DNA from: Asticcacaulis biprosthecium C19
GTDB lineage: Bacteria; Pseudomonadota; Alphaproteobacteria; Caulobacterales; Caulobacteraceae
DNA length: 60,109 nucleotides
Direction of reading: 5' to 3'
NCBI RefSeq assembly: GCF_000204015.1
Contig: NZ_GL883078.1
Location: 123,644 to 183,752 of the forward strand
Positions 3,230 through 53,826 of this stretch are shown here, piece by piece; positions within the stretch are counted from its first letter, which is position 1, and every line of letters starts with the position of its first letter. A model generated the notes under the pieces. It worked only from the letters and a program-made list of their open reading frames with translations. It had not been told where the DNA came from and did not search any database. The position numbers were made by a program, and so were the translations under genes.

Positions 3230-3802
3230 TTGTCCACAGATAAGCCAGATAAGCCAGACGATCCATGGGCTGCAACGCCTAAGATTTCAGCCGCTTAAAA
3301 TCCAGCTTTGCACCACCAAAGTTGATCAGCAATCCAATAGATAGGCGCGCAGCGCGAAGATAATTCATAACCTGGGCATCTTCACGTGGCGATAGTTCAG
3401 CCAAAGCCTTCAATTCAACTAGGACATTGTCGAAGCAGATGAAATCCGCGCGATACTGACAGGCAAGGATGCTATCCCGATAATGAATGGGCAGGGCGCA
3501 TTCGCGCCGGAAGGGGACGCCCGCCCGTCCAAGCTCAATCGCAAGGGCTTCGTGATAGACAGCTTCCAGAAACCCGTGCCCCAACCGCGAATGCACCTCC
3601 ATCGCCGCGCCGATAATGGCGTAGGTCTGTGGATCACGCTTGTCCAAGCTCATCTGCTACCTCCCTGAACCGCCTTATCTACACTCGATAACACCACTTT
3701 CGCGCGAAGCGCATTACTTTTGAAAGCACCAACGCCACCAATCCAGGCGCGCAGATTGGGCCACCATGGATCATCTGGCTTCTCTGGCTTATCTGTGGAC
3801 AA
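3230..3802. mobile_element. IS-like unit: 39-bp inverted repeats enclosing one GxxExxY gene
   Basis: The left end (3230-3268) and right end (3764-3802) are inverted repeats identical at 37 of 39 positions. Each arm reads TTGTCCA, then three iterations of CAGAT spaced 9 bases apart (CAGATAAGC units), and ends inward in a CCATGG. The only gene inside is the GxxExxY gene on the minus strand, whose stop lies 10 bases from the left arm. A gene-free copy of the same repeat class is at 51001-51169. No target-site duplication was recognised. Calling it mobile is inference from the architecture. Confidence 0.55.
3279..3653 (-). CDS. GxxExxY-family protein (PDDEXK-like fold family)
   Basis: 124 residues from an ATG with a strong GGGAGG ribosome site 7 bases upstream. 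The family motif is visible as GFLEAVYHEAL (residues 27-37), preceded by the helix IIGAAMEVHSRLGHG. Further on, the strand-forming RADFICFDNVLVELKAL contains D-x10-E-x-K, the layout of a PD-(D/E)XK nuclease core, and INFGGAKLDFKRL closes the protein as in the family. No biochemical role is established to my knowledge. Here the gene is the sole cargo between two 39-bp inverted repeats, which suggests the protein acts on those repeats, although it could instead be a passenger. Confidence 0.85.
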   Translation of the reverse strand: MSLDKRDPQTYAIIGAAMEVHSRLGHGFLEAVYHEALAIELGRAGVPFRRECALPIHYRDSILACQYRADFICFDNVLVELKALAELSPREDAQVMNYLRAARLSIGLLINFGGAKLDFKRLKS

Positions 3803-4035
3803 CCCTTTCTAACCTCAGCCTCCACCACCCACGACCGCCGGAAATAACCCAGAACACAATCCCGCCGCACCCCGCGTTCATTCTAGATCAATCGATCGAT
3901 GAGTCTCTGGCGGCTATCGAATCAAGCCATACTTCCATATGGATTTTTTGCGCCGCGGTGGCGTGTGTGTTCGGTATCTGACGACAGCCGAAAGCCCCGG
4001 CATCATTCGGGCACTGGCAGAATAGAGGTGGGCAC

Positions 4036-6141
4036 GTGACGGGCGCAAGGGGTGGACTAGTCTTATGCGCCGTCAGCCTGGCCGCCCTGCTGGCCGGCGC
4101 GGCCGCCGCCCAGGAAACACAAGCCCCGCCCCCCGACGATATCGTCTCCGACGAAGCCTTCGACGAAGCCCTCCCCACCCTCGACGACACACCGGCGCCT
4201 GAACCCGAAACGCCACCCCCGGCCGAACCGGCACCACCGCCCAATCCCGACGCCACGGTCACCGTCACCGAAACCGCCCCCACCCGGGCCGACGCCCTGC
4301 CCGCCGTTACCGTCGACGACCAGGAACTCGACGCCCCCCTCCCCGCGCTGGAAGGCTATGACGTCCAGCCGCTCCAGGCCGCCGCCGAGCCCGATCGCGA
4401 CCTGCCCGAAATCCGCTACGCACTTCAGGTCGATGGCCTGTGGGGCCGCATGAAGGACCGCTTCAAGGACCTGTCCGCCCTCGAACAGGGCGACGGCAAG
4501 GCCGCCAACACCGCCATGATCCGCGCCCGCGCCAATGAGGACGAAGCCCTCATCCTGCGCCTGCTCAAATCCGAAGGCTATTTCGACGGCGCGGTCATGA
4601 CCACCCTGGCCCCCGTCACCGGCCAGCCCGACCAGACCCGCGTCGCCATCACCGTCACGCCCGGCAACCTCTATCGCCTTAACGCCATCGATATCGCCGC
4701 CCAGCCGACCACCCCGCCCGACCTGATCCGCCGCTCCCTGCCGCTCAAAAAAGACGACGGCATCGTCGCCGACACCGTCCTGGCGGCCGAGGCCAATGTC
4801 AGCCTGGAGATGCAGCGCAACGGCTATCCCTTCGCCAAGATCGGCGCCCGCGACATCGCGCTGGAAGAACTCACCCACACCGGCCATTACACACTGAATG
4901 TCGACACCGGCGACCGCTCGCGCTTTGGCGGCTTCCGCAGCGATGGCGACATCGTCTTCCAACCCGACCATGTCGAGGTCCTGACCCGTTTCGAACGCGG
5001 CGAACTCTACGACAACCGCAAGGTCGACGACCTGCGCGAAGCCCTGGTCGCCACCGGGCTGTTCTCCAGCGTCGGCGTCGAACCCGTCCCCACCGGCGAA
5101 AAGGCCGAAGACGGGACCGCCTATGTCGACCTTCTGGTTCATCAGCAGAAGGGTCCCAGCCGGACCCTGGCGGCCGAGGTCGGCTACAGCACCGGTGAAG
5201 GCTTCCAGGCCTCGGCCAGTTGGACCGATCGCAACCGCTTCCCGCCGGAAGGCGCCGTCATCTATACCGGCGTCATCGGCACCCAGGAACAGAGCCTGTC
5301 GGCGACCTTCCGCCGCTCCAACGACAAGAAGCGCGACCGCACCACCCAGTTCGGCGTCAGCGCCGCCCACAATGTCTACGACGCCTACGACGCCAACACG
5401 GCCAGCCTGGCCTTGTCGCGTTCCCGCGTCTCGACGCCGCTGTGGCAGAAGGTGTGGACCTGGTCCTTCGGCGCCGAAATCCTGGCCACCCAGGAAATCT
5501 CCACCGACCTCAGCGGTGCCGCGACCACCAACAGCGTCCGCGAAGTCTTCTACCTGGCCGACCTGCCGATCCGCATCGGCTACGACCGTTCCGACGACCT
5601 GCTCAATCCGACAACAGGCTTCCGACTTGGCATCCAGACCACCCCGGAAGTCAATCTCGGCGATACCGGCGCGCCCAACGTCAAGACCCTCCTCGATGGC
5701 AGCTATTACCGGGCGATCAACGACAAGATGGTGATCGCCAGCCGCGTCCGCCTGGGGACCCAGCTGGGCGCCCAACTCGACCAGATCGCGCCGTCCCGTC
5801 GCATCTATGCCGGCGGCGGTGGTTCGGTCCGCGGCTTTGCCTTCCAGGGTCTGGGTCCCGTCGATACCGACGGCGATCCGACCGGCGGCCTGAGCGTCTT
5901 CGAAGCCTCGGTCGAATTGCGCTACCGCCTGGGCGACCTCGGCATTGTGCCCTTCATCGATATCGGCCAGGCCTATCCCGAAGAGGTCCCCAGCTTCTCC
6001 GACCTGCGGGTCGGTATCGGCGTCGGCGCCCGGCTCTACACCAATTTCGGCCCCATCCGCATCGATGTCGCCATGCCGCTCAGCAAGCGAGACAACGACC
6101 CCCAGGTTGCGCTGTATGTCGGCATCGGCCAGGCCTTCTAA
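4036..6141 (+). CDS. tamA: TamA-like outer-membrane assembly factor (BamA/Omp85 superfamily)
   Basis: 701 residues from a GTG with GAGGTG upstream. A signal peptide ends around AAAAQ (residue 25). A Pro/Asp/Glu-rich linker follows (about 30-110), then POTRA-like repeats (about 120-360, for example the VTPGNLYRL segment), then the Omp85 beta-barrel (about 370-701) with GGGGSVRGFAFQGLGP and a terminal aromatic residue (GIGQAF). TamA works with TamB in inserting outer-membrane proteins and in lipid transport. The next gene, 2 bases downstream, is tamB, which decides TamA over BamA. The long acidic-proline linker is unusual compared with enterobacterial TamA. Confidence 0.9.
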   Translation: MTGARGGLVLCAVSLAALLAGAAAAQETQAPPPDDIVSDEAFDEALPTLDDTPAPEPETPPPAEPAPPPNPDATVTVTETAPTRADALPAVTVDDQELDAPLPALEGYDVQPLQAAAEPDRDLPEIRYALQVDGLWGRMKDRFKDLSALEQGDGKAANTAMIRARANEDEALILRLLKSEGYFDGAVMTTLAPVTGQPDQTRVAITVTPGNLYRLNAIDIAAQPTTPPDLIRRSLPLKKDDGIVADTVLAAEANVSLEMQRNGYPFAKIGARDIALEELTHTGHYTLNVDTGDRSRFGGFRSDGDIVFQPDHVEVLTRFERGELYDNRKVDDLREALVATGLFSSVGVEPVPTGEKAEDGTAYVDLLVHQQKGPSRTLAAEVGYSTGEGFQASASWTDRNRFPPEGAVIYTGVIGTQEQSLSATFRRSNDKKRDRTTQFGVSAAHNVYDAYDANTASLALSRSRVSTPLWQKVWTWSFGAEILATQEISTDLSGAATTNSVREVFYLADLPIRIGYDRSDDLLNPTTGFRLGIQTTPEVNLGDTGAPNVKTLLDGSYYRAINDKMVIASRVRLGTQLGAQLDQIAPSRRIYAGGGGSVRGFAFQGLGPVDTDGDPTGGLSVFEASVELRYRLGDLGIVPFIDIGQAYPEEVPSFSDLRVGIGVGARLYTNFGPIRIDVAMPLSKRDNDPQVALYVGIGQAF

Positions 6142-6143
6142 AC

Positions 6144-9100
6144 ATGGACACGCCGCCCGAAAAGCCGATCCTCAGACAGCGTCTCGACGCAGCCCGCAGC
6201 CACGCCACCCGCCTTAGCCGTCACGCCGCCAACGAAGTCCACGGCCGCTGGAAGGCGTTGGACTGGCGCGAAGTCACCTGGTCGAAGGTGGCGCTCAACA
6301 TCGCCATTGTCCTGGCCATCGTCACCGCCATCGTGGCCATCCTGCTGATGTCGCTGAACACCGCGCCCGGCCGGCGGCTGCTGATCGAATACGCCACCGG
6401 CATCAAGCTCAATTCCGGCCTGCAGATCGAGATCGAACGCATCGACGGCTCGCTCTACGGCGAAATGACCCTGCACAATGTCCGCGTGAAAGACCCCAAG
6501 GGCGTATTTGTCCAGAGCCCGATCATCCACCTCAACTGGCGGCCCTTCGGCGCGCTCAACAAACACGTCGATATCCGCGAATTCTCGACCCCGCGCATCG
6601 ATGTCCTGCGCCAACCGGCGCTGAACCCGTCCCAGGATCCGGAAAAGGACACGGGCCCGCTCCTGCCCGACATCAAGATCGATATAGGCAAGGTCAAGGT
6701 CGAGGCCATCAATCTGGCGCCCGAAATCACCGGCGAAGCCCGCACCTTAAGCCTCAACGGCGAAGCCCACCTGCTGAAACGCCGTGCCAAGGTCGTCGCC
6801 GACGCCCGCAGCACGCAGGGCGATCTGCTCAATGTGCTGATCGATGCCGTACCCGACGACAACCGGCTCGACATCGAAGCCCGGCTCAGCGCCCCCTCCG
6901 GCGGCCTGGTCGACGATATCCTGAAACTGGACGGTCCGGTCACCGCAGCCATCGCCGGCAAGGGCGAATGGAAACTGTGGCGCGGCAAGGCGACCGCCAG
7001 CCTCGGTGAACAATCCCTGATGAACCTGGACCTGACGGCCCAGGACGGCACCTTCTTCGTCAAGGGCCCGGCCTATCCGGGTGTGCTCCTGACCGGCGAA
7101 TCCGCCGCGCTTTTTAAGCCCGCTGTCCAGGTCGACCTGACCGCCAAGGGCAAGGACCGCCGCTTCGACACCGACCTGAAACTGACCTCGGATGCCTTAA
7201 GCCTCACCGCAAACGGCGTGGTCAACCTGGCCGGCAACCGTTTCGACAAGGTCGAGGCCCATCTGCGCCTGCTCGACCCGGACGCACTCGGCTACGGCTT
7301 TGCCGCCAGCGACCTCTATGCCGACCTGGTCATCGACGGCGAGTTCCGTCAGCCGCGCTTCGACTACGACGTCAAGGCGACGCGGTTCAATCTGGACACA
7401 CTGCGTCTGGTCGACTTCACCGCCAAGGGCACGTCGCGCGGCAGCGACGGCGTCGTCATCATCCCGGTCAATGCCCGCGCGACCGCCATTTCCGGCATTG
7501 ACCCGCGAGTCGATCCCCTGTTGACCCACCTGAAACTCGACGGCGATGTCCGCATCGAAGACGGCCAGTTGACCAGCGACAATATCCGCCTGGTCTCCGA
7601 TCGCGCCAAGGCCAGCGGTTCCCTGCGCGGCAATACCCGCGACGGCGTCTACACCGCCGACGTCAAGGCCAGCGTTGACGACTACACCATCGCCGAAATC
7701 GGCACGATGAATGTCTCGACCGTGGCCAAGATGACCTATCGTGACAAGCCGGGCTTCTCCATGACCGGTTCGGCCGATATCGTCACCACCAAATGGTCCC
7801 AGGACGGCGTGCGCGACCTCATGGGTGGCAATGCCCGCCTGACCGGCAACTATGCCTGGTCGCCCGCCGGCATCTTCTCCTTCAGCAAGGTCAGCGGCAA
7901 AGCCCCTCTCTTTACCCTGGCCTCGGCCAACGGCAATTTCAACACCAAGGGCGCCATCACGCTCAAAGCGCTGGGCACCTCGCAAACCTACGGCCCGCTC
8001 GACCTTACCGCCACCGGTACTTTCGAGCGTCCGGTCGCCGTCCTGCGCGCCGCCAGCCCGGGCCTGGGTGTCGAGATGCGCGATGTTGTCGCCAACATCA
8101 CCGGCGTTGACGGCGCCTACGCCATCGTCGGCGAAGGCAACAGCGCCTACGGCCCCTTCTCGGCCGACACGGTCCTCCTGATCAGCCAAGGCCCGCTGAT
8201 CATCGACATCAAGACGGCATCCTTCGCCGGCATCAACACCTCGGGACGGCTGACCCAAACCGACGGCGGGCCCTTCGCCGGCAACCTGGTCCTGGCCGGA
8301 TCGGGCCTGACCGGCACCGCCATCCTCAGCAACAACGCCGGCGACCAGGCGGCCATCGTCAACGCCACCGGCTCCGGAGTCGTCATCCCGGGCGACATGC
8401 CAGAAAAGAATCGTGGCACGGTCGGCCGCGCCATCATTGCCGCCAATCTGGTGCTGCGCGATCAGCTCGAACTCACCGGCGAAGTCCAGATGGCCAATGC
8501 CACCTGGCAGGATTTCAGCCTTGCCACCGGCCGCGCCAAGATCAACCTGAAGGGCGAAGCGGGCACCATCCAGGCCGTCGCCACCGGCTCGGCCGCTGTG
8601 CCGTTCCATGTCGCGGTCAACGGCACCATCGCGCCCAACCTCTACACCGTCGCCGCCAAGGGCACCGCCAACGGGCTTCCGTTTACCCTCGAAAAGCCGG
8701 CACGTATCACGAAAGCCGGAAGTGCCAAATCTGGAGCGGAATGGGTATTGCAACCGACCAAGCTGGTCATGGAGCAAGGCCGCATGGACCTGGCCGGCCG
8801 GTTTGGCGAAAAGCTCCAGATGCAGGCCCGACTGCACAATATCGACCTCTCCGTCGTCAACCTGTTCAGCAACGACCTGGGCGTCGCCGGCCGCGCCGAA
8901 GGCTCGGTCGAATTCGCCCAGGTCGGTGGCCGCTTCCCGACCGCCCGCCTGGCTCTGAAGATCGACGACTTCTCGCGCACCTCGGCCGCTGTCGTCTCCA
9001 CCCCGGTCGACATGACGGTCGACGCCCAACTCAACCCCAACCGCTCGGCTTCCTCCAACTATGTCCGCGCCGTGGTGCGCCAGGGCGGCAATGTCGTCGG

Positions 9101-10448
9101 CCGCGTCAATGCCGACCTGACGCCGTCGGGCGACGCTCGCTGGGTCGAAGCCCTGATGGACTCCGGCCTGTCCGGTGGCGTGCGCTACAATGGCCCCGCC
9201 GCCGTGCCCTTTTCGCTGGCCGGCCTGCCGCGCCAGAACCTGACCGGCGCCGTCGCTGTGGCCGCCGACATGTCCGGCCGCCTCAGCCAACCGCGCCTCA
9301 ACGGGGTGATCAAGGGCACGTCGCTGACCTACGACAACGAAACCTTCGGCACCCGCATCACCTCCCTGGCCATCGACGGCCGCTTCACCAATGACCGCCT
9401 CGAACTGACCAAGCTCGAAGGCCGCGCCGGCGCCGGCACCGTCTCCGGTTCCGGCTGGCTCAGCCTGGCCGCTGACCAGCGCTTCCCCATGTCGATCCAT
9501 GTCGACCTCTCCAACGCCCGCCTCGCCCGCAGCGACACGGTCGACTCGACCGTCTCCGGCACCCTCGACGTCACCAACTCGCAAGCCGACGGGGCATGGG
9601 TCCGGGGTGATCTGAGTCTGCCGCAACTCAAGTACGAAATGGTCCGCCAGGGTGCTGCCCAGGTCAACGTCCTGGACGGAGTCCACAAGAAGGGTTTCGA
9701 GGACAAACCCCAGGTCGCGGATTCCACAATTCCAGCCTTATGGAATTTAAGCATTGGGGTCCGCGGCGACCGCCAGATTTTCGTCTCCGGGATGGGTCTC
9801 GATTCGGAATGGGAGATGGACCTGCGCGTCATCGGCACGACGCGCGACCCGCGCGTCGTCGGCCGCATGGAGGTGGTCCGCGGCAACTATACCTTTGCCG
9901 GCAAGGCCTTCACCATCGACAACGGTAATATCATCTTCGACGGCGGGCCTTTGGTCGACCCGGAAATCTCGATCCAGGCGTCGGGCGATATGCAGGATGT
10001 CAAGGGAATCATTAGGGTTTCTGGCTCGGCCCAGCGTCCGTCCCTGGCCTTCTCCTCGACCCCGGCCCTGCCCCAGGACGAGGTCCTGTCGCGGATGCTG
10101 TTCGGCGAGAGCGTGACCAACCTATCGGCCACCGAAGCCCTACAATTAGCGAGCGCGGTCAATGGCTTACGCGGCGGGACCGACTTCCTGAACCCGCTTG
10201 GGGCCCTGCGCTCGGCGACCGGGATCGACCGGCTGCGCCTGGTTGGCGCCGACACGGAAACCGGCCGCGGCACCTCGCTGGCGGCCGGTAAGTATCTGAC
10301 AAGTAACGTTTATGTCGAGATCGTCACCGACACCAAGGGCTTTACCGCGACCCAGTTAGAGGTCGCCCTGTCGCGCGCCTTGTCGGTCCTGTCCCAGGTC
10401 GGCAACCAGGGCACCGCGGTCAGCGTCCGCTATTCGAAGGACTATTGA
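6144..10448 (+). CDS. tamB: Translocation and assembly module protein TamB
   Basis: 1434 residues from the ATG 2 bases after tamA. The start gives a basic cytoplasmic segment followed by one membrane anchor (about residues 51-74, IVLAIVTAIVAILLMSL). The long middle is made of repeated amphipathic beta strands typical of TamB/AsmA-like bridge proteins, and the C-terminal 350 or so residues carry the DUF490 signature, including GNIIFDGGPLVDPEI, SRMLFGESVTNLSA and the final VSVRYSKDY. TamB spans the periplasm and partners TamA in outer-membrane protein assembly and phospholipid transport. Upstream extension of the frame into tamA is an artefact of GC-rich coding. Confidence 0.93.
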   Translation: MDTPPEKPILRQRLDAARSHATRLSRHAANEVHGRWKALDWREVTWSKVALNIAIVLAIVTAIVAILLMSLNTAPGRRLLIEYATGIKLNSGLQIEIERIDGSLYGEMTLHNVRVKDPKGVFVQSPIIHLNWRPFGALNKHVDIREFSTPRIDVLRQPALNPSQDPEKDTGPLLPDIKIDIGKVKVEAINLAPEITGEARTLSLNGEAHLLKRRAKVVADARSTQGDLLNVLIDAVPDDNRLDIEARLSAPSGGLVDDILKLDGPVTAAIAGKGEWKLWRGKATASLGEQSLMNLDLTAQDGTFFVKGPAYPGVLLTGESAALFKPAVQVDLTAKGKDRRFDTDLKLTSDALSLTANGVVNLAGNRFDKVEAHLRLLDPDALGYGFAASDLYADLVIDGEFRQPRFDYDVKATRFNLDTLRLVDFTAKGTSRGSDGVVIIPVNARATAISGIDPRVDPLLTHLKLDGDVRIEDGQLTSDNIRLVSDRAKASGSLRGNTRDGVYTADVKASVDDYTIAEIGTMNVSTVAKMTYRDKPGFSMTGSADIVTTKWSQDGVRDLMGGNARLTGNYAWSPAGIFSFSKVSGKAPLFTLASANGNFNTKGAITLKALGTSQTYGPLDLTATGTFERPVAVLRAASPGLGVEMRDVVANITGVDGAYAIVGEGNSAYGPFSADTVLLISQGPLIIDIKTASFAGINTSGRLTQTDGGPFAGNLVLAGSGLTGTAILSNNAGDQAAIVNATGSGVVIPGDMPEKNRGTVGRAIIAANLVLRDQLELTGEVQMANATWQDFSLATGRAKINLKGEAGTIQAVATGSAAVPFHVAVNGTIAPNLYTVAAKGTANGLPFTLEKPARITKAGSAKSGAEWVLQPTKLVMEQGRMDLAGRFGEKLQMQARLHNIDLSVVNLFSNDLGVAGRAEGSVEFAQVGGRFPTARLALKIDDFSRTSAAVVSTPVDMTVDAQLNPNRSASSNYVRAVVRQGGNVVGRVNADLTPSGDARWVEALMDSGLSGGVRYNGPAAVPFSLAGLPRQNLTGAVAVAADMSGRLSQPRLNGVIKGTSLTYDNETFGTRITSLAIDGRFTNDRLELTKLEGRAGAGTVSGSGWLSLAADQRFPMSIHVDLSNARLARSDTVDSTVSGTLDVTNSQADGAWVRGDLSLPQLKYEMVRQGAAQVNVLDGVHKKGFEDKPQVADSTIPALWNLSIGVRGDRQIFVSGMGLDSEWEMDLRVIGTTRDPRVVGRMEVVRGNYTFAGKAFTIDNGNIIFDGGPLVDPEISIQASGDMQDVKGIIRVSGSAQRPSLAFSSTPALPQDEVLSRMLFGESVTNLSATEALQLASAVNGLRGGTDFLNPLGALRSATGIDRLRLVGADTETGRGTSLAAGKYLTSNVYVEIVTDTKGFTATQLEVALSRALSVLSQVGNQGTAVSVRYSKDY

Positions 10449-10455
10449 GGTAAGA

Positions 10456-10555
10456 GGTCCACAGATTACACAGATTACGCAGATTTATTCCGGATGGGGC
10501 AGCCGCAGGCGCGAAACGCAATCTTCATCTGTGTAATCTGTGAAATCTGTGGATC
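10456..10555. repeat. Iteron hairpin, class B (CAGATTACA units)
   Basis: Inverted repeat between the convergent tamB and mrp genes. The left arm (10456-10490) reads GGTCCA then three CAGAT units 9 bases apart; the right arm (10521-10555), reverse-complemented, reads GATCCA and again three CAGAT units. The central 30 bases contain GGCGCGAAACGC, a worn version of the internal hairpin seen in the copies at 44.9 and 48.4 kb. The left arm starts 7 bases after the tamB stop. Confidence 0.85.
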
Positions 10556-10586
10556 GCCTTACGAATAAAGCCGCTACGCGGTAGGT

Positions 10587-11702
10587 TCAGGACTTTCCCA
10601 CATCGGCCGCCAGGCCATCTAGTACCTTCTGGGCCATGACCTTGAATCGGGCGGCCATGTCGCCGTCTGGTTCCAACGCCGTCAACGGCCGGCCGTCGTC
10701 GCAGCCCGCCCTTAACGCTGGGTCCAGCGGCACTTCGCCCAGGAAGGGCACCTTGGAAGCATCGGCTAAGCGAGCCGCGCCGCCACGACCGAAGATCTCG
10801 ATCTCGCTGCCATCCGGCGCCTTGAAAAACGCCATGTTTTCAACGACTCCCAGCACCTTCACGCCCGTTTTCCCAAACAATGTCACAGCCCGCCGGGCAT
10901 CCGACAACGCCATTTCCTGGGGCGTCGACACGATCACTGCCCCGTCGATCAGGGTCTTTTGCGTTAGGGTCAGTTGCACGTCCCCCGTGCCCGGCGGCAG
11001 ATCGACCACCAGAACGTCCAAGGGCTGGCTTTCCGTCCCCCAACGCGTCTGCGTCAACAGTTGCGTCAGCGCCTGGGACGCCATGGGACCGCGCCAGATC
11101 ATGGCCTGGTCAGCATCGACCAGAAATCCGACGGAATTCACTTTCAAACCAAAGGCTTCCGGCGGCACCATCAACTTGTCGGGACCGAATTCCGGTGGCC
11201 GTCGCACGCCCAAAAGCGTTGGTGCCGACGGCCCATAGATGTCGGCATCCAGAAACCCAACCCGCAAACCCAATTGATGCAGGCCCAGGGCAAGCCCCAG
11301 CGACACGGTCGACTTGCCAACCCCGCCCTTGCCGGAACCCACGACGATGACCTGCTTGACGTGATCCGGTCGAGCATCGGCAACGGGCGCCGCCTTCTTG
11401 ACCTGATCGATCGCCTGGGGCGACAGCTTGGCCTGAGCGGGCTTGGGCGGCGCCGCCGCCATTTCCGCCGTCAGCACGACCTGAGCCTTACGCACGCCCT
11501 CCAGGCCCGCCAGCAGCTTTTCCGCCGCCAACCGCACAGGACCATAGGAGGTCACCTTGTCCTGCGGCACTTCCAGCATGAAGCCGACGCGCTCGGGCGA
11601 GACGATCAGCGCCCGCACCAGACCGGCATCGCTCAGCCCCTGACCGGTCGCCGGATCGGTGATGGCGTTGAGGGCAGTCAGGACTTGGTCGCGGTCTAAC
11701 AT
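10587..11702 (-). CDS. mrp: Mrp/ApbC-family iron-sulfur cluster carrier ATPase
   Basis: 371 residues. An N-terminal MIP18/DUF59 domain (about 1-90) is followed by an Ala/Pro/Lys linker and a P-loop NTPase of the Mrp/NBP35 type: the deviant Walker A GSGKGGVGKST (about residue 122), GFLDADIYGPSAPTLLG, VVDLPPGTGDVQLTLTQ and VENMAFF. Members carry Fe-S clusters to apoproteins in the cytoplasm. A CxxC cluster-binding pair is not obvious where E. coli Mrp has it (VENMAFFKAPDGSEIEIFG has none), as in several alphaproteobacterial homologues. Upstream it is divergent from miaA. Confidence 0.93.
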   Translation of the reverse strand: MLDRDQVLTALNAITDPATGQGLSDAGLVRALIVSPERVGFMLEVPQDKVTSYGPVRLAAEKLLAGLEGVRKAQVVLTAEMAAAPPKPAQAKLSPQAIDQVKKAAPVADARPDHVKQVIVVGSGKGGVGKSTVSLGLALGLHQLGLRVGFLDADIYGPSAPTLLGVRRPPEFGPDKLMVPPEAFGLKVNSVGFLVDADQAMIWRGPMASQALTQLLTQTRWGTESQPLDVLVVDLPPGTGDVQLTLTQKTLIDGAVIVSTPQEMALSDARRAVTLFGKTGVKVLGVVENMAFFKAPDGSEIEIFGRGGAARLADASKVPFLGEVPLDPALRAGCDDGRPLTALEPDGDMAARFKVMAQKVLDGLAADVGKS

Positions 11703-11779: not shown

Positions 11780-11786
11780 GTGGAAA

Positions 11787-33187: not shown

Positions 33188-33284
33188 TGCCGGGACGTAG
33201 TACCTGCCCGTGCCGGGTTCGCGTTTTCGATGCCTTTTTTCGCGCCCTTCCCTTCCCATGGCCGATGAGCGGGCCTATATAGAG

Positions 33285-33600
33285 GGTGTCCGGGCAACCG
33301 GACTATGGGGATAAACGCCCACGTAATAAGCGAACTGGACCCGGGTGCGATTCCCGGCGGCTCCACCATTCTCCCCTCGGGGATTTCTATGGGGCCGATC
33401 AGCATCGACAGGCGTGTAAAGGTGAAGCCTTCCCTCGGTATGAGCCTCCGCGATCGGCTCATTTTTTAACTGCGAACGATAACTTCGCTCAGGAGCATGC
33501 CCTTGCTGCGTAATGCAGCGGGGATCCTCCACCTAAACTCCTAGGGAATAAGCCCCCTAGGCGGGGCCCGGCAGGCGCCTTGCAACAGAAGCCTGCCACC
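33285..33600 (+). ncRNA. ssrA: Transfer-messenger RNA, two-piece (circularly permuted) type
   Basis: The 3' acceptor piece comes first: a T-arm with GGTGCGATTCCC and the acceptor end GGCTCCACCA finishing at 33368. After a spacer of about 22 bases, the 5' piece begins at 33391 with GGGGCCGATCAGCATCGACA; its GGGGCCG pairs with CGGCTCC of the first piece. The tag frame is at 33472-33510, GCG AAC GAT ... GCT GCG, then TAA, giving (A)ANDNFAQEHALAA. GC-rich pseudoknot-like stems follow to about 33600. The outer ends are approximate. tmRNA rescues stalled ribosomes and tags the product for ClpXP. Confidence 0.95.
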
Positions 33601-36734: not shown

Positions 36735-36944
36735 GGGGTTTGGGGGTGAGAAGCGCAGGTTTGTCGCATGGCCGGCAAACCTGATGAAATCGACCCAGTG
36801 GGTCGATTTCCGCGACGAACGCCCAGAGCCATGCGGCGGGCGGCCCCATAAAATCTTTCTTTTTCCTTTTCCTTAGCCTCACCTCAAAAGGCGAGGCTAA
36901 GGAAAAGGAAGAGGGAAGACTTGGGGCCACGGGCCCCAAACCCC
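36735..36944. repeat. Large multi-branched hairpin region with terminator
   Basis: Nested and consecutive perfect stems: an outer GGGGTTTGGGG/CCCCAAACCCC (36735-36745 with 36934-36944); CAGGTTTG/CAAACCTG (36756-36763, 36776-36783); GAAATCGACCC/GGGTCGATTTC (36786-36796, 36800-36810); GGCCCCA/TGGGGCC (36842-36848, 36922-36928), and inside it an 18-bp stem (36863-36880 with 36893-36910). It fills the gap between two convergent genes. The last stem may terminate both; the rest is not explained. A minus-strand frame across it is a by-product. Confidence 0.6.
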
Positions 36945-42570: not shown

Positions 42571-42738
42571 CCCAGCGCCGAAATCCCCAGCATGCGACGG
42601 CATGCCGCCGCCCCTACCCAGCCTCGCGTCGCTTGAGCGACGAAAACGAGCCTCGCGGCGCCGGAGTGCCGCACAGACAAAGATTTCGGCGTCCCCAGCG
42701 CCGAAATCCCCAGCATGCGACGGCATGCCGCCGCCCCT
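42571..42738. repeat. Two identical 45-bp repeats with embedded hairpins, plus 29-bp degenerate units
   Basis: Bases 42571-42615 recur exactly at 42694-42738. Each copy carries CGCCGAAATC, which pairs with a GATTTC(T/G)GCG just before it, and GCATGC-GACG-GCATGC. Around them a degenerate unit of about 29 bases (CCTCGCGGCGCCTGAGCGA type) occurs four times, at about 42621, 42651, 42747 and 42776. The block lies between yccF and the GIN-domain gene and encodes nothing convincing. Confidence 0.75.
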
Positions 42739-44887: not shown

Positions 44888-44985
44888 GGTCCACAGATTA
44901 CACAGATTAGGCGCGCAAGCGCGCTGATTTTAATTGGCGCGAAGCGCCGTTCTTAATCCCGTCTAATCTGTGTAATCTGTGGATC
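44888..44985. repeat. Iteron hairpin, class B, with two internal hairpins
   Basis: The arms (44888-44910 and 44963-44985) match at 22 of 23 positions and carry CCA plus two CAGAT units 9 bases apart, with a worn third (GGGAT) on the right. Inside are GCGCGC-AA-GCGCGC and GGCGC-GAA-GCGCC, so the strand can fold as a three-branched structure. The locus lies between the slipin and uvrC genes and ends 5 bases before the uvrC stop. The copy at 48335-48450 is the same element in reverse. Confidence 0.88.
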
Positions 44986-46895: not shown

Positions 46896-47117
46896 GACTC
46901 AACTTCTACTCTGTCTTCTGCCAATAGACGACAGCGGCGCATAACTCTAAATCAGGATTCTACCCTGATTTGGCAAGGGCATCAGATAGCTTCTTGGCCA
47001 GCCGCGCACGTTTGTGCGAGCCCGCGCGGCGCGTGAGCGCATACAGTGTAACAATTTCTGTTCACGGGCGCGTGATATTGCACTTGCGAAAATCGCCGTT
47101 TTTAGTATCCACAGCAT

Positions 47118-48305
47118 ATGCGTTTTGTATCGTCCGTTTTCCAGAGTCTGAAGGTGGCTTCAGGATCTTTCGCTGCGGCATTGACCGCCGCGGCGCCGGG
47201 ATCGTCCCCGGCCGAGATCCGTTCGCTCACCGGCCTGCGCGGCCTGGCGGCTCTGTACGTGGTGATCTTCCACGCCAACGGGTTCTGGAAGTTCCCTGAT
47301 CCGGTGCGGCCGTTCATCCATCACGGCTATATGGCGGTCGACCTGTTCTTCATTCTAAGCGGGTTCGTCATGGCGATGACCTATGCCCACATGTTCGAAG
47401 ACGGCTTCTGCTTCAAGAAGTTCAAGCACTTCCTGGTACTACGCCTGGTGCGGATCTATCCGTTGTTCGCCCTGATGACGGTGCTGACCGCAATCCTAAT
47501 CGTCACCGTCCTGGCGCCGACCTACCGCTTCGAAGACCTGCCTCTGGCCCTTCTGCCGAACTTTACCCTCACCCAGGTGTGGGGCCTGTCCAACTCGATC
47601 GTGCCCCAAGCATGGTCGATTTCGGCGGAATGGGCCGCCTATCTGCTGTTCCCTCCCGGTGTCTGGCTGGCGCTGAAGGTGTCGCGACGCTGGACCGTGC
47701 TGGGCCTGCTGGCCAGCTTTGCTGTGTTGGGCGCCATTGCCTACGGCCCGCACTGGATTGCCGAAACGCCGCTGCGCGGCCGCCACGGCCCCCTGGATAT
47801 CGTCAGCTCCTACGCCCTTGGCACGACCCTGCGCTGCCTGGCGTCGTTCTACATCGGCCTCGTCGCCTGGCGGTTCAAGGACCTGATCCCGGCGCGCGCC
47901 GCCGGCGTTCTGTTCCTTCTGGCGTTGCTCCTGCTCTCTATGAAGGGGTCGGACCTGATCCTGGTCGGCGTCTTTGGCGTGCTGATTATGGCGCTCAGCC
48001 ACGACACCGGATGGGTGGCGCGGCTGATGCAGGTGCGCTGGGTCTATTGGCTGGGCGGCATTTCCTATGCCCTGTATCTGATCCACGACATCGTCCAGAA
48101 GATCATCTTCCAGTCCTTTCCGGGCTGGGGCCTCAGCGGCGCCCTGCCGAAGTGGGGCTGGGTCATCGTGTCGGTGACCGTATCGATTGCCCTGGCAGCG
48201 CTGAGCCATTACCAGTTCGAAAAGCCCTCACGGACATGGTTCCGTCGCCTGATCAAGAACCCGCCGGCCTCGAAGCCGCGCGAAGTCCTGACGCCAGCGG
48301 AGTAA
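47118..48305 (+). CDS. Acyltransferase 3 family membrane protein
   Basis: 395 residues with about ten membrane helices. The N-terminal IRSLTGLRGLAALYVVIFHANGF supplies the catalytic-type His after the first helix, followed by HGYMAVDLFFILSGFVM and the RLVRIYPLFALM motif with conserved Arg; further on GISYALYLIHD. The family (OafA/WecH type) acylates sugars of surface polysaccharides or exported metabolites using cytoplasmic acyl-CoA. The ATG at 47118 follows a weakly AT-rich stretch, and no good ribosome site is seen. Confidence 0.88.
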   Translation: MRFVSSVFQSLKVASGSFAAALTAAAPGSSPAEIRSLTGLRGLAALYVVIFHANGFWKFPDPVRPFIHHGYMAVDLFFILSGFVMAMTYAHMFEDGFCFKKFKHFLVLRLVRIYPLFALMTVLTAILIVTVLAPTYRFEDLPLALLPNFTLTQVWGLSNSIVPQAWSISAEWAAYLLFPPGVWLALKVSRRWTVLGLLASFAVLGAIAYGPHWIAETPLRGRHGPLDIVSSYALGTTLRCLASFYIGLVAWRFKDLIPARAAGVLFLLALLLLSMKGSDLILVGVFGVLIMALSHDTGWVARLMQVRWVYWLGGISYALYLIHDIVQKIIFQSFPGWGLSGALPKWGWVIVSVTVSIALAALSHYQFEKPSRTWFRRLIKNPPASKPREVLTPAE

Positions 48306-48334
48306 ACCCTCGCGCCGGTTACTGCGGCAGTCTT

Positions 48335-48450
48335 CGCGAAGTGGGTCCACAGATTACACAGATTAAGAGAGATTAAGAACGGCGCTTCGCGCCAAGAATA
48401 ATCAGCGCGCTTGCGCGCTTAATCTGTGTAATCTGTGGACCCACTTCGCG
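48335..48450. repeat. Iteron hairpin, class B, reverse-oriented sister of the 44.9-kb copy
   Basis: Perfect 33-bp arms (48335-48367 with 48418-48450) start with CGCGAAGTGGGTCCA and carry two CAGAT units 9 bases apart. The interior, read on the other strand, has the same two hairpins in the same order as the copy at 44888 (GCGCGC-AA-GCGCGC and GGCGC-GAA-GCGCC) and a shared GTTCTTAAT. It lies between convergent genes. Confidence 0.9.
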
Positions 48451-48486
48451 TAAATGGCCGCTACGCGGCGCTTTCGAGACAGGCAT

Positions 48487-49812
48487 CTATTCTAGCTTAT
48501 CAGCCTTGTACAGCGTCGGGAACAGCTTGATCCAGGCGCCCGTCACAATCAGAGAACCGATGCCGCCGAACAGGGCCGCACCGACCGGGCCTAGTATGCG
48601 CGCTGCCACGCCGCTTTCAAATTCGCCCAACTCGTTCGACGCCCCGATAAACAGGTAGGACACCGACGCCACCCGACCGCGCATATGGTCGGGCGTCACA
48701 ATCTGGACCAGGGTACCGCGGACATAGACGCTGATCATGTCGGCCGCGCCCAGCACGGTCATGGCGAAGATCGACAGCCAGACATTGGTCGACCGGCCGA
48801 AGACGATCGTCGCCACGCCGAAGATGGCCACACCGCCGTACATCCACGGCCCGGCATGACGGCGCAAGGGCCGAAGCGACAGGTAGAAGGACATGATCAG
48901 CGCACCAATCGCCGGCGACGCCCGCAACAGACCAAAGGCAATTGCCGCCGGCAGCAGGGTATCGGCAACGATGACGTCGCGGACAAACACCGGCATCAAC
49001 GCCGTCGCACCGCCCAGCAGCACGGCGAACAGGTCCAGCGAAATCGCGCCCAGGATCAGCTTGTTGGTCCAGATATAGTTCCATCCCTCCTTCACCATCT
49101 GGGTCTTGGAGGTGGTGGACGGTTCCGGCGCCGTCTTCGCCTTGATCGTGAACACCAGGACCGACGCGACGACCAGCAGGACGGCACAAAAACCATAGGC
49201 AAAATGGGTCGAAAATCCGATCAGCACGCCGCCGAGGGCCGGGCCGACGATCAGGCCGGTCTGAAAGGCCATGGAGTTGACGGCAATCGCCTTGGGCAGC
49301 ACGAACTTGGGCACCAGCATCGGGCCGATGGCCGAACTGGCCGGCGCGCTGAAGGCGCGGAAAGCGCCCAGGACGGCGCTGAGGGCAAAAAAGCCCCAGA
49401 ACGGCGCCGCCGGCAGAAACGAATAGGCCAGGAACCCCAGCGACAGCAGCATTTGCCCGACCAGGACGATAGAGATGATCTTCTTGCGATCATAGCGGTC
49501 CGCAATGATGCCAGCCGGGATGGTGAAGGCGAACAGGGTAATGAACTGCGCCAGGCCGATGAGGCCGACATACAGCGCCGATTCCAGCACGTTGGAGGTC
49601 TGACGGGCGATGTCGTAAACCTGCCAGCCTATGGCCGCGCTTTGCGCCGATGTCCCCAACACACCGCACAGGCGCGACAGCCAGAAGGCGCGGAAATCGG
49701 GGATCTGGAGCGGGTGGCGCTGATCCTGATCGGCATCAGGCACGTTGGGGGTCTCGCGTGGAGTCTCTGGCGTCACGGCAACAGCCTTTGCACACAAATG
49801 AGTTGCGGGCAC
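48487..49812 (-). CDS. MFS transporter of the EntS/DHA3 drug-exporter type
   Basis: 441 residues from a GTG at 49812, or 429 from a GTG at 49776; the first is 26 bases from the dapE ATG, so the second leaves more promoter room. The N-terminal signature PDFRAFWLSRLCGVLGTSAQSAAIGWQVYDIARQ (in parts) and the motif PAGIIADRYDRKKIISIVLVGQ are those of the MFS_3 family, with FRAFSAPASSAIGPMLVP and DHMRGRVASVSYLFIGASNELGEFESG near the end. Twelve helices are expected. Substrates may be siderophores or drugs; unknown here. Confidence 0.85.
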   Translation of the reverse strand: MPATHLCAKAVAVTPETPRETPNVPDADQDQRHPLQIPDFRAFWLSRLCGVLGTSAQSAAIGWQVYDIARQTSNVLESALYVGLIGLAQFITLFAFTIPAGIIADRYDRKKIISIVLVGQMLLSLGFLAYSFLPAAPFWGFFALSAVLGAFRAFSAPASSAIGPMLVPKFVLPKAIAVNSMAFQTGLIVGPALGGVLIGFSTHFAYGFCAVLLVVASVLVFTIKAKTAPEPSTTSKTQMVKEGWNYIWTNKLILGAISLDLFAVLLGGATALMPVFVRDVIVADTLLPAAIAFGLLRASPAIGALIMSFYLSLRPLRRHAGPWMYGGVAIFGVATIVFGRSTNVWLSIFAMTVLGAADMISVYVRGTLVQIVTPDHMRGRVASVSYLFIGASNELGEFESGVAARILGPVGAALFGGIGSLIVTGAWIKLFPTLYKADKLE

Positions 49813-49838
49813 CCTATTTGAGTCTTACATCCACCGCC

Positions 49839-50990
49839 ATGCCGAACACCGTAAAATCCACGCCAATTGACCCTGTTGTCCTGACCCAGAACCTGATCCG
49901 CCGCGAGTCGGTCACGCCGGCCGATGCCGGCGCCATGGATGTGGTCCAGCGGGTCCTGGAAGGCCTGGGCTTTGCCTGTGAGCGGCTGAAATTCGGTCAA
50001 ATCGAAAACCTCTATGCCCGCCGCGGCACCACTGGGCCAAACCTGTGTTTCGCCGGCCATACCGATGTTGTGCCGGGCGGCGTGCGGTCGTTGTGGCGGT
50101 ACGATCCGTTCGGCGCTGAAATCCACGATGGCCTGGTGATCGGCCGCGGCGCCGTAGATATGAAGGGCGGCATTGCCGCCTGGATCGCGGCTGTGTCGCG
50201 GGTCGACGTCCCAGGGTCCCTTTCGTTCCTGATCACAGGCGACGAGGAAGGCGAAGCCAGCGACGGCACGATCCGGGTGGTCGAATGGCTGCGTGAACGC
50301 GGTGAGGTCATCGATCACTGCATCGTCGGCGAGCCGTCTTCCTCGGCGCAGTTGGGTGACATGATCAAGGTCGGCCGGAGGGGCTCGATCAACGCCACCT
50401 TCACCGTCACGGGCAAGCAGGGCCATGTCGCCTATCCACAGCGCGCTCTGAACCCCCTGCCCGTTCTGGTCGACCTGGTGGCGGCGTTAAAGGCGCGCGT
50501 CCTGGATGATGGTTATGAGGGCTTTCCGCCGTCGAACCTGGAAATTACCACGATCGATACCGGCAATACAGCGACAAATGTCATCCCGCAGTCTGCGATG
50601 GCACGGGTCAATATCCGCTTCAACCCCACACATACCGGGGCTGAGTTGAAAGCATGGTTCGAGGGGCTGGCGGTGGACCATGCCGCGCGGTCGGGTGCCA
50701 AGATCGATGTCCGGGTCAGCATTTCGGGCGAGGCCTTCCTGACCGAGCCCGGCCCCTTTGTCGACCTGATCGCCGAGGTCATCCAGGCGCAATTCGGCAT
50801 CGAGACGGATCGTTCAACCACGGGCGGAACCTCGGACGCGCGGTTTATCCGGGCGCTGTGTCCGGTGGTCGAATTCGGCCTGGTCGGCCAGACCATGCAC
50901 CAGATCAATGAGTGCGTCCCGGTGACGGAACTACAGGCTTTGACGGACGTGTATGCGGCTTTGATTGAAGCCTATTTCAGGAGATTCTGA
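49839..50990 (+). CDS. dapE: Succinyl-diaminopimelate desuccinylase
   Basis: 383 residues, the normal length. M20 metallopeptidase motifs: CFAGHTDVVPGG (first metal His and Asp), GRGAVDMKGGIAAW (bridging Asp), ITGDEEGEA (catalytic and metal Glu), the dimerisation domain with KQGHVAYPQRALNP, and GTSDARF and the final TMHQINECVPV. It makes diaminopimelate for lysine and peptidoglycan. It is divergent from the MFS gene and convergent with truA. Confidence 0.95.
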   Translation: MPNTVKSTPIDPVVLTQNLIRRESVTPADAGAMDVVQRVLEGLGFACERLKFGQIENLYARRGTTGPNLCFAGHTDVVPGGVRSLWRYDPFGAEIHDGLVIGRGAVDMKGGIAAWIAAVSRVDVPGSLSFLITGDEEGEASDGTIRVVEWLRERGEVIDHCIVGEPSSSAQLGDMIKVGRRGSINATFTVTGKQGHVAYPQRALNPLPVLVDLVAALKARVLDDGYEGFPPSNLEITTIDTGNTATNVIPQSAMARVNIRFNPTHTGAELKAWFEGLAVDHAARSGAKIDVRVSISGEAFLTEPGPFVDLIAEVIQAQFGIETDRSTTGGTSDARFIRALCPVVEFGLVGQTMHQINECVPVTELQALTDVYAALIEAYFRRF

Positions 50991-51000
50991 CAGCAATAAG

Positions 51001-51169
51001 GTTGTCCACAGATAAGCCAGATAAGCCAGATGGACAGCGCTTCCGAACCATAGCTTGTTGAAATGTATGAAGTTTCGACGAGCTTTGCTCGTCATTTTTC
51101 CGTTGGTTGATCCGCGATTTCAACCGTCTGCGCTGTCCATCTGGCTTATCTGGCTTATCTGTGGACAAC
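51001..51169. repeat. Iteron hairpin, class A, perfect 40-bp arms, no gene
   Basis: 51001-51040 and 51130-51169 are exact inverted repeats of 40 bases: GTTGTCCA, three CAGAT units 9 bases apart (CAGATAAGC type) and GGACAGCGC. This is the same class as the ends of the GxxExxY unit at 3.2-3.8 kb. The 89-base centre holds GTTGAAAT/ATTTCAAC (51057-51064 with 51117-51124) and GACGAGC-TTT-GCTCGTC. The locus lies between the dapE and truA stops. Confidence 0.92.
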
Positions 51170-51184
51170 CCTTTTTGCGCACGT

Positions 51185-51958
51185 TCAGATCGAGCTGTAG
51201 GTGCCGAAATCGGGCTCCGCCTCATAGGTGACATGCGTCAGATACAGCCCTTCCGGCGGGGCGACTTGGCCGCAGGCGGCGCGGTCTTTGGCCGCCAGAG
51301 CCTCCGCCACATCCGCGATATCCCAACGGCCGATACCGGCTTCTACCAATGTCCCCGTCATCGACCGCACTTGGCGATGCAGGAAGGATCGTGCCGCGAA
51401 GACCAGATGGATTTCGTCACCGAAGCGCTTCACCCGCGCGATATCCAAAGTCTTGACCGGGGATTTCGCCTGGCATTCAACGTGGCGGAAGGTCGTAAAA
51501 TCATGCGTGCCGACCAAAGCTTTCGCCGCCTGCGCCATCACCTCGGCATCCAGCGGCTTCTTGACATGCCAAACCCGGCCCATATCCAAGGCCGGTGGGG
51601 CCCGTCGGGTGAGGATGCGATAGAGATACATCCGCCCCGTTGCCGAAAACCGCGCCGAGAACTCATCATCGACCTGTTCGGCCGCAAGGACCGACACCGG
51701 CTCGCGCGCCAGGAAAGCATTCATCGCGTCGCGTACCGTATCGGCCTTGAACGCTTTGCTGAGGTCGAAGCTGACCACCTGCCCCGTCGCATGCACGCCT
51801 GTATCGGTCCGGCCAGCCGCCGTGATGCGCAGAGCTTCACCCGAAAAGCCCAGGATGGCACGCTCAAGTGATGCCTGGACGGTCGGATGGTCGCCCTGGG
51901 CCTGGAAGCCCTTATAGGGGCGGCCATCATATTCGATCAGGCAGCGATAGCGCGGCAT
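51185..51958 (-). CDS. truA: tRNA pseudouridine synthase A (positions 38-40)
   Basis: 257 residues from the ATG at 51958, which overlaps the fmt stop by one base (TGATG). Motifs: [34 protein letters not shown] with the catalytic Asp, and the second half with [31 protein letters not shown] and [20 protein letters not shown]. It converts uridines 38-40 in tRNA anticodon arms. Last gene of the def-fmt-truA group. Confidence 0.96.
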
Positions 51959-52887
51959 CAGATGAACCGGTCGCCCGGCTGCAGGTCGGTGCCGTTGAGA
52001 AAGTCCAAGGCGTCTTGCGCAGCCTTGCCTTCGCGCTGCAGCCGCAAGATCTGGATGACACCGTCGCCGGTCGCCACCTTGAGCCCGCCCAGCAGCAGGG
52101 TGCCGGGCGTCTCGCCGGAGTGTTCGTCGCTCAGGCGCGACATCAGCACCTTGACTCGGACTTCGCCCTTGCCGGTCGCCATGGTCGTCCACGCACCGGG
52201 GAATGGCGACAGGCCGCGGATATGCCAGTCGAGTTCGCGCGCCGGCCGGTCCCAGTCGATGCGCGCCTCCTCCGGCGTGATCTTGCGGGCATAGGTGACC
52301 TCGCCAGACTGTTCCTGTTCGTTGGCACCACCGCGTTCGATCGCTGCCAGGGCCACCGGCAGCAGGGAGGCGCCAAGGGTCGCCAGTTTGTCATGGAGGG
52401 ACTGGGCGGTGTCCTCGTCGGTGATTTCGACCCGGCCCGACAGGATGATCGCCCCCTCGTCCAGGCCTTCCGACATGCGCATGACTTCGACACCGGTATG
52501 GCTGTCGCCGGCCATGATAGCGCGTTGGATGGGGGCCGCGCCACGCCAGCGCGGCAGCAGCGAGGCGTGGAGATTGAAACAACCCAGAGGTGGGTGGTCT
52601 AGCACGGCCTTTTTCAGGATCTGGCCATAGGCAACGACGATACAGGCATCGATGTCCAGCGCCTGGAACTCGGCAATGGCGTCGGCATCCTTCATCGATT
52701 TGGGCGTGCGCACGGGCAGGCCCAGGGAGGCGGCGAAGGCATGGACCGGCGACGGGCTCAGCACCTGGCCACGGCCTTTCGGCGCTGGCGGCTGGGAGTA
52801 GACGCAGACGATGTCGTGACCGGCCGCGACCAGTTCGGCCAGGGCCTTCACGGCGAATTCGGGGGTGCCCATAAAGGCCAGACGCAT
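51958..52887 (-). CDS. fmt: Methionyl-tRNA formyltransferase
   Basis: 309 residues. The start [13 protein letters not shown] is canonical; the catalytic region is [27 protein letters not shown] with Asn, His and the later Asp in the [15 protein letters not shown] segment, and a C-terminal OB-like domain follows. It formylates Met-tRNA for initiation. The Shine-Dalgarno GAGG lies in the 3' arm of the hairpin at 52894-52921, 9 bases from the ATG. Confidence 0.96.
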
Positions 52888-52893
52888 GAAAAA

Positions 52894-52921
52894 GACCTCG
52901 CGACGGTTTCGCCGCGAGGTC
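52894..52921 (-). terminator. Hairpin with T-tract between def and fmt, covering the fmt ribosome site
   Basis: GACCTCGCG pairs with CGCGAGGTC around 10 bases; on the transcribed strand the stem is followed directly by TTTTT and then CATG, the fmt start. It has the form of an intrinsic terminator, and the 3' arm contains the GAGG that would serve as the fmt ribosome site. It may attenuate fmt-truA expression relative to def. Confidence 0.6.
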
Positions 52922-52950
52922 TAATCACAAATGCTATGTGGAGCAAGCCT

Positions 52951-53484
52951 TTAGGCGGCGCGGGTAAGCTTCTTCACTTTCGTAATCGCGCGGTCACGCT
53001 TGAGCTTCGACAGATGATCGATGAACAGCGTACCTTCCAGGTGGTCCATCTCATGCTGGATACAGACGGCGAACAGGCCGTCGGCGTCTTCTTCGACGGC
53101 GTTACCGTTGTAGTCGAGATATTTCAGCTTCACCTTGGACGGGCGCAGGACCTCATCGTAGATTTCCGGCACGCTGAGGCAGCCTTCTTCGTACGGCGCC
53201 ACCTCCTCGGACCTCCAGATAATCTCGGGATTGACGAAGTAGCGCGGCTTCTTGACGCCTTCGGCATCGGGCTCGGCGCCTTCGGGTTTCTCCTGCAAAT
53301 CCATGACGATGACGCGGATCGGCTCACCGATCTGGACAGCCGCCAGGCCAATGCCCGGCGCGTCATACATGGTTTCCAGCATGTCATCCATCAGGCGGCG
53401 CAGATCGTCGTCGACCTTGTCGACGGGCTTGGACACCTGTTTCAGGACGGGGTGGGGTACAGTCAGAATTTCACGAATAGCCAT
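52951..53484 (-). CDS. def: Peptide deformylase
   Basis: 177 residues from the ATG at 53484. The three family motifs are complete: [10 protein letters not shown] (G-x-G-L-A-A-x-Q), EEGCLSVPE (E-G-C-L-S with the metal Cys) and [12 protein letters not shown] (H-E-x-x-D-H metal site with catalytic Glu). It removes the N-formyl group from new proteins, complementing Fmt. Frames that extend 26 codons further upstream run into the repeat at 53533 and are not real. Confidence 0.96.
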
Positions 53485-53532
53485 GTCGCAGATGTAGTCG
53501 TTTGCCCCGGAACAATCAAGATATACAAGAGC

Positions 53533-53826
53533 TTTGAACCACGGATGGACACGGATGAACACGGATTTCCGGTTTAGTCTGCCCCTGCCGCGCAGCGGCG
53601 TCTAAGTTGATTTGGAACCGCGAATGGACGCGAATGAACGCGAATATCCATGGTGATTTCAAACCGTGGAGTGTCTCAGATTTTTTTTTTGAGCGCGCAT
53701 GGCGCTCCCTCTATTCGCGTTCATTCGCGTCCATTCGCGGTTTGAATCCCCCAGATGCTTCCGCTGCGCAATTGTATCAGGCTTGACCGGAAATCCATGT
53801 TTATCCGTGTCCATCCGTAGTTCAAA
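53533..53826. repeat. Iteron hairpin, class C (outer), 10-bp CGGAT units
   Basis: Arms 53533-53572 and 53787-53826 match at 37 of 40 positions. Each reads TTTGAACCA (or TTTGAACTA), three CGGAT units 10 bases apart on the left (GGAT with one change each on the right), then TTTCCGG. The interior contains the smaller hairpin 53616-53742, so one element sits inside another, and GCCGC-GCA-GCGGC. It lies between def (upstream end) and rmuC (downstream end), both on the minus strand. Confidence 0.88.
53616..53742. repeat. Iteron hairpin, class C (inner), 10-bp CGAAT units
   Basis: Perfect 30-bp arms (53616-53645 with 53713-53742): AACCG then three CGAAT units 10 bases apart. The centre holds TCCATGGT/ACCGTGGA (53647-53654 with 53663-53670), a run of ten T at 53681-53690 and GAGCGC/GCGCTC. 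The unit differs from the outer element at the same positions in each iteration (CGGATGGACA versus CGAATGGACG), so the two are related but distinct versions. Confidence 0.9.

Follow-up and report, generated by a model that had tools for sequence, protein, structure and literature searches.

We describe a family of inverted repeats in a stretch of 60,109 nucleotides from Asticcacaulis biprosthecium C19 (contig NZ_GL883078.1, positions 123,644 to 183,752), referred to here as the window. The arms of these repeats are built from tandem iterons, and one pair of arms encloses a gene of the GxxExxY family. We propose that the arms probably form the termini of small mobile elements belonging to one family, and that the solo hairpins are gene-less forms moved by the GxxExxY protein of the same class. 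The proposal draws on the location of the gene between the arms, the tracking of the protein by the arm class, presence and absence at orthologous sites, the occurrence of several copies, the catalytic residues, and purifying selection. The unit and its turnover are supported by sequence comparison, and binding, cutting and insertion by the GxxExxY nuclease are what we infer.

A repeat search of the whole window returned 20 inverted pairs. Six of the top seven (I1-I4, I6 and I7, at 53527, 50995, 48324, 53616, 10458 and 44890) are pairs named in the original prediction, which had been made from the sequence alone. The seventh predicted pair, at 3230, is beyond the distance limit of that search and was recovered in genome locus L001 (1438-1481 and 1977-2020, equivalent to window 3225-3268 and 3764-3807); its arms are 91% complementary and 495 nt apart. 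Here L labels denote loci and G labels comparison genomes, G000 being the genome of the window itself (5.41 Mb, six contigs); classes are named by core plus spacer, AAGC and TACA having CAGAT cores. The window arms start with CC[A/G], followed by two or three cores at a period of 9 or 10. Four classes are present: CCACAGAT-AAGC-CAGAT, CCACAGAT-TACA-CAGAT, CCACGGAT-GGACA-CGGAT and CCGCGAAT-GGACG-CGAAT. Exact class patterns match 18 (AAGC), 17 (CGAAC), 74 (TACA) and, for a fourth pattern, 13 times in G000. Read backward, three of the patterns have no match in 25 Asticcacaulis genomes, and the fourth none in 398 genomes of the phylum. A mismatch-tolerant search with six class patterns gave 100 arm matches against one backward (878 kb, three genomes). 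The repeat search and the near absence of backward matches confirm the prediction of seven iteron-arm pairs at six loci on one plan; the four class words, with their core numbers and periods, read as it stated, and the short GC-rich inner hairpins that it placed at most loci are present in most elements. It erred in grouping the 3230 pair with the hairpins. This pair encloses a GxxExxY gene, which had been missed, and with it the likely mobile-element nature of the family.

The protein encoded between these arms scores 142.6 bits against TIGR04256 (cut-off 35) and 135.4 against PF13366 (PDDEXK_3; cut-off 22). There are six GxxExxY genes in G000. Inverted iteron arms enclose five of them (two of class CAGAT+AAGC and one each of CAGAT+TACA, CGAAC and CGGAA), while L005, the remaining gene, is flanked on one side by a CGGAA hairpin and also has a masked stretch. 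Two of the four arm classes of the window have their own GxxExxY gene in G000, and the CAGAT+TACA gene shares its class with the solo hairpins at 10456, 44888 and 48335. A CGAAT-class GxxExxY gene is present in G007.

The same arrangement is found in many phyla. A total of 211 loci was collected (31 from the genus, 80 from named contigs, 30 from the phylum, and 70 from 40 named genomes plus the phylum), giving 188 distinct loci and, after five with short flanks were dropped, 183 usable ones. The best 80 were taken from 584 confirmed matches (L032-L111), the loci from genome searches are the best by expectation value (E), and L335-L374 are 40 places picked by hand from match lists (34 + 6). An inverted-arm score of at least 40 was obtained at 117 of the 183 GxxExxY loci and at none of 575 control windows; for a score of at least 32 the figures are 143 and three. 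Flanks taken from different loci were rejected as a control, since the likeness of arms within a class makes such flanks match often (64/930 at 40; 3217/6006 at 30); gene-free windows and PIN genes were therefore used. Three gene families were compared in 40 genomes, with one locus for each of 30, leaving 28, 28 and 26 once loci with cut flanks had been dropped. Scores of at least 36 occur at 20/28 GxxExxY, 0/28 PIN and 18/26 TIGR02436 loci, and scores of at least 32 at 24/28, 1/28 and 23/26, respectively. The single PIN locus (score 35) owes its score to iteron arms more than 300 bases away on both sides.

The arm word follows the GxxExxY protein lineage. Core words were read with a rule of our own making ([CAT][AGC][AG]A plus any base) at the 135 loci scoring at least 34; 124 loci yielded a word, and 116 full-length proteins were placed in a tree of 120 columns, with 41 of its 113 inner branches left open. 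Nine word groups require 24 changes on this tree, compared to a shuffled mean of 52.5. For CAGAT alone, with 61 proteins from many phyla, the values are 5 and 38.5, and the CGGAT, CGAAG, CAGAA and CGAAC groups, of three to five proteins each, show little or no clustering. Such tracking is also expected from common descent of the whole element, and what it shows is that the gene and its arms go together, not that the protein binds the arms. A single design with several classes had been predicted, with a paralogous protein for each class as one possibility; the gene between the arms and the agreement of word and protein tree support this by association. The accompanying idea of a protein that reads the core along one DNA face remains a conjecture; the commonest core-to-core spacing among the 124 loci is 9 (209 cases, as against 76 for 10), which is not a full helical turn. 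Outside the core, 27 of 41 Asticcacaulis arms contain a motif AAG(N0-2)G, compared to 54 of 352 control stretches; the corresponding figures in other genomes are 29 of 184 arms and 168 of 1501.

Among 176 full-length GxxExxY proteins the catalytic residues are near-invariant (E30 in 176, D70 in 174, E80 in 175 and K82 in 176). The conserved positions are E, D, ExK, Q and Y, and QxxxY is a mark of the RecB/Cas4 group. The proteins are under purifying selection. The best fold matches of the predicted GxxExxY model are the DNA nucleases Cas4, RecE and lambda exonuclease, with tRNA splicing endonucleases among the weaker ones; no solved structure with sequence kinship to the window protein was found, the one match (E 0.53) being due to chance. 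A defence system was considered and rejected: the window protein falls in no PADLOC family, and its relative L002 gives only weak matches there (PDC-M36A, E 0.0057; Cas4b, 0.016; Cas4, 0.019). One search returned 4,300 GxxExxY relatives at E ≤0.001. Plasmids and phages were likewise rejected as the usual vehicle, with 8 of 72,556 plasmid records matched by each of two queries, and none of 50,697 phage records by one.

Comparison with related genomes indicates that the elements come and go. G007, at about 87% identity, lacks the hairpins at 10456, 48335 and 53533/53616, and no arm of the six classes was found in the 61.5 kb of G007 colinear with most of the window. At 10456, G007 has 15 bases in place of 179, and G009 carries a CGGAT/CGAAT element instead. 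At 44890 both genomes hold different, longer sequence. At 48335, 2 bases separate the convergent stop codons in G007, and a CGAAC hairpin occupies the site in G009. In the dapE-truA gap, G000 and G009 contain AAGC hairpins whose loops differ, and G003 contains one of class CGAAC. The outer hairpin at 53527 is missing in G007 and present in G009; the G007 site at 53533 has a GTTCAA stretch resembling an element end, and may be a remnant rather than an empty site. Nesting, as seen at 53527, also occurs elsewhere: a TACA hairpin lies inside a CGAAC hairpin (L248), lone TACA arms lie inside two more (L239, L260), and a CGAAT hairpin lies inside another hairpin (L242). At one site in the genus, with flanks about 84-87% alike, the GxxExxY elements differ in word by species (L012 CGAAC, L013 CGAAA). 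Across L012, L013 and L014, which are orthologous at this site, the iterons of both arms switch between CGAAC and CGAAA, and this would reflect either element replacement or concerted change.

As a separate observation, several other palindromic families that lack iterons (one has CCTCCCC/GGGGAGG arms) likewise differ in presence between species, when contig C2 of G000 and the window are set against G007 and G009. Two copies of GCGACGGCATGCCGCCGC, at window 42594-42734, are within a 258-base stretch absent from G007.

Several copies of one element were found within a genome. One planctomycete genome, of Schlesneria, has three (L319, L347 and L359), which are 89-91% alike, share the gene plus both arms, and have mostly unrelated flanks. 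On the right side the shared sequence of two pairs stops 4-6 bases past the arm, that of the third pair about 59 bases past it; on the left side it stops 17-30 bases past the arm. Two copies in G007, separated by 17 kb, share 98% of their sequence across one arm plus the gene, and diverge from the stop codon onward, the other arm being alike only in part. Arms of different hairpins are 98% alike for AAGC and 90% for CGAAC.

In the genus, AAGC, CGAAC or TACA arms are found in 9 of 13 genomes with GxxExxY sequence (three of these with broken pieces only) and in 1 of 12 without (p 0.004; 25 genomes in all). An intact cognate gene goes with at least 12 arm matches per genome, with G015 as the exception: AAGC, 18 in G000 and 14 in G009; CGAAC, 17 in G000, 12 in G007 and 42 in G009; TACA, 74 in G000 and 42 in G021. 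Among the 398 phylum genomes, GxxExxY is present in 19 of 24 with a CRGAT triplet (one counted by a weak match, and most of the triplet genomes being from one family) compared to 46 of 374 without.

A number of observations weigh against our proposal. G015 has a CGAAC-like gene (L012) and no match to the CGAAC pattern. Conversely, TACA arms occur without an intact cognate gene in G009 (48), G014 (32), G016 (18) and G022 (15), as do AAGC arms in G007 (24), and G016 gives no GxxExxY match at all. The six GxxExxY genes of G000 include none of class CGGAT or CGAAT. Within a single family (f39) the link of triplet and gene is weak (17/21 compared to 28/53, p 0.03, hand-counted). Of the 183 loci, 66 score below 40 and 40 below 32, including L005, L011, L015, L024 and L029. 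Pairs of loops exceed shuffled sequence in only 15 of 28 cases for AAGC and 15 of 120 for CGAAC, and unrelated loops beside arms 90-98% alike are odd for copies of one master. Finally, no target duplication is evident at 10456, 48335 or 53533, or in the three planctomycete copies (82-91% identity).

Hairpins in several genomes that lack an intact cognate gene would also fit miniature elements moved in trans by an unrelated transposase or RAYT, with GxxExxY as a mere passenger, and Y1_Tnp matches are present in 40 of 47 GxxExxY-bearing genomes. Yet G000 has 74 arm matches of one class and no match to Y1_Tnp, the sole transposase family searched; moreover, a mere passenger should neither follow the arm word across phyla nor retain its catalytic residues. 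We regard this explanation as unlikely.

The TIGR02436 family was chosen as an rRNA intervening-sequence family, and three of its members match PF05635 (23S_rRNA_IVP). These genes (L411-L440, from genomes among G431-G470) lie between inverted iteron arms, unlike the PIN genes there, and the arm period is 7 in 35 of 46 arms. Two families with the same plan indicate a wider architecture. The shared plan also suggests that the elements might move or act as RNA, as do 23S rRNA intervening sequences, with the arms pairing within a transcript and the protein serving in RNA processing or reverse transcription, and the tRNA splicing endonucleases among the weaker fold matches point the same way. The top fold matches are DNA nucleases, however, and near-palindromic hairpins point to neither RNA nor DNA; we consider movement as RNA quite improbable.

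The solo hairpins tend to lie where genes converge. Arm clusters lie between convergent genes in 19 of 42 cases, compared to 101 of 539 intergenic gaps (p 2e-4), as counted with a crude home-made gene caller that called 51001 divergent (it is convergent, dapE/truA) and 53533 tandem, and split the 3225 and 3764 arms into two clusters; the counts are kept as produced. Terminator-like scores were obtained for the inner mini-hairpins at 44888, 48335 and 51001, and the region has 17 terminator-like sites compared to a shuffled mean of 7.9. It could be argued from this that the hairpins serve convergent genes as bidirectional terminators or as structures protecting RNA, kept there by selection, and that the GxxExxY link is secondary. 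Terminators require neither iterons, nor a lineage-specific word, nor a nuclease gene between the arms, and hairpins at orthologous sites are missing or swapped for another class, while a 3' placement is equally expected from selection on surviving insertions. This explanation is very improbable. The earlier view that terminators are insufficient stands for the arms, but several of the inner mini-hairpins do look terminator-like.

Returning to the mobile element, we suggest the following, a REPIN/RAYT-like way of working in which the enzyme is an unrelated nuclease. The full element would be a GxxExxY gene of about 375 bp flanked by inverted arms of two to four iterons each, with lineage-specific cores (CAGAT, CGGAT, CGAAC, CAGAG, CGAAG and others) that mostly recur every 9-10 bases; the solo hairpins would be short gene-less forms, presumably mobilised in trans by the GxxExxY protein of the same class. 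The arms would fold as a hairpin in single-stranded or cruciform DNA. The PD-(D/E)XK nuclease would then bind the iterons and cut close to the outer ends, and through host repair or replication a copy would arise elsewhere, mostly in 3'-intergenic positions, with no clear target duplication. There is about an even chance that this is a new class of bacterial mobile element, in which a stand-alone Cas4/RecB-like nuclease, without any transposase, moves hairpins by recognising the tandem word of their arms, each nuclease lineage having its own word. GxxExxY elements (period 9-10) and 23S_rRNA_IVP elements (period 7) would then be two branches of a single architecture, with inverted iteron arms serving unrelated small proteins, and their miniature copies would account for much of the palindromic DNA between genes in many phyla.

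The probable mobile element, with a small Cas4-like nuclease as its only gene product, is widespread and apparently undescribed. In the portions of the open-licence PubMed Central (PMC) literature available to us, we found no role for GxxExxY, no link of GxxExxY or PF13366 with flanking repeats, and no description of 23S_rRNA_IVP genes tied to period-7 iteron arms; the six arm words, and PDDEXK_3 together with inverted repeat, had no match in open-licence PMC literature. The link to iteron hairpins gives a large protein family a probable role and explains a widespread kind of intergenic repeat. If correct, it implies mobility through a stand-alone PD-(D/E)XK nuclease, and the many natural pairs of protein and word should allow recognition by a very small nuclease to be read from them. 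The period-7 elements at 23S_rRNA_IVP genes suggest a wider principle.

Table 1 Iteron-arm features in the window.
Feature	Position	Strand	Arms	Flanking genes or profile matches
Left arm of gene-carrying element, CAGAT+AAGC	3225..3268	.		
GxxExxY gene, 124 aa, PD-(D/E)XK nuclease-like	3279..3653	-		TIGR04256 E 6.3e-42; PF13366 E 1.5e-39
Right inverted arm of gene-carrying element	3764..3807	.		
Solo hairpin, CAGAT+TACA	10458..10553		10458-10484, 10527-10553	convergent tamB-like / apbC-like
Solo hairpin, CAGAT+TACA	44890..44983		44890-44913, 44960-44983	convergent Band_7 / uvrC
Solo hairpin, CAGAT+TACA	48324..48461		48324-48367, 48418-48461	
Solo hairpin, CAGAT+AAGC (class of 3225)	50995..51175		50995-51040, 51130-51175	convergent dapE / truA
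Outer hairpin, CGGAT+GGACA, second element inside	53527..53832		53527-53598, 53761-53832	
Nested hairpin, CGAAT+GGACG, 100% complementary	53616..53742		53616-53646, 53712-53742	

Outside the iteron family, the window has a long pyrimidine-rich hairpin at 36851-36922 (34-nt arms, 4-nt loop), an alphaproteobacterial (permuted) transfer-messenger RNA gene at 33249-33600, and a small signal recognition particle RNA on the minus strand at 58632-58727.

Among known systems, a DDE insertion sequence with miniature inverted-repeat transposable elements was rejected for the window, where the gene between the arms is GxxExxY and not a transposase; the loci outside the window were selected by their GxxExxY gene and provide no test of this reading there. 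Replication or plasmid iterons were also rejected: the 12 window proteins scanned include no initiator match, and the neighbouring genes include apbC-like, uvrC, dapE and truA. The closest parallel is with REPIN/RAYT, described as short repeats forming hairpins as inverted doublets, dispersed between genes and tied to a cognate gene (PMC3116915, PMC8266576). The iteron elements likewise have inverted doublets that form hairpins, a gene with these repeats on both sides, and forms that lack the gene. They differ in that the gene is PD-(D/E)XK nuclease-like and not HUH/Y1, with no Y1_Tnp match in G000, and in that the arms are tandem iterons. REPIN/RAYT palindromes have a tag motif such as GTAG beside them, and the AAG(N0-2)G of the iteron arms is another motif. 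The intervening sequences of 23S rRNA are small selfish elements with one small gene (PMC4990558). The PF05635 relatives also sit between inverted iteron arms, but GxxExxY is a different protein, the period is 9-10 and not 7, and the window contains no rRNA match. Lastly, the GxxExxY model resembles Cas4, RecE and lambda exonuclease in its predicted fold and in the conserved E, D, ExK, Q and Y positions, but differs from them in that the window protein stands alone, at only 124 residues.

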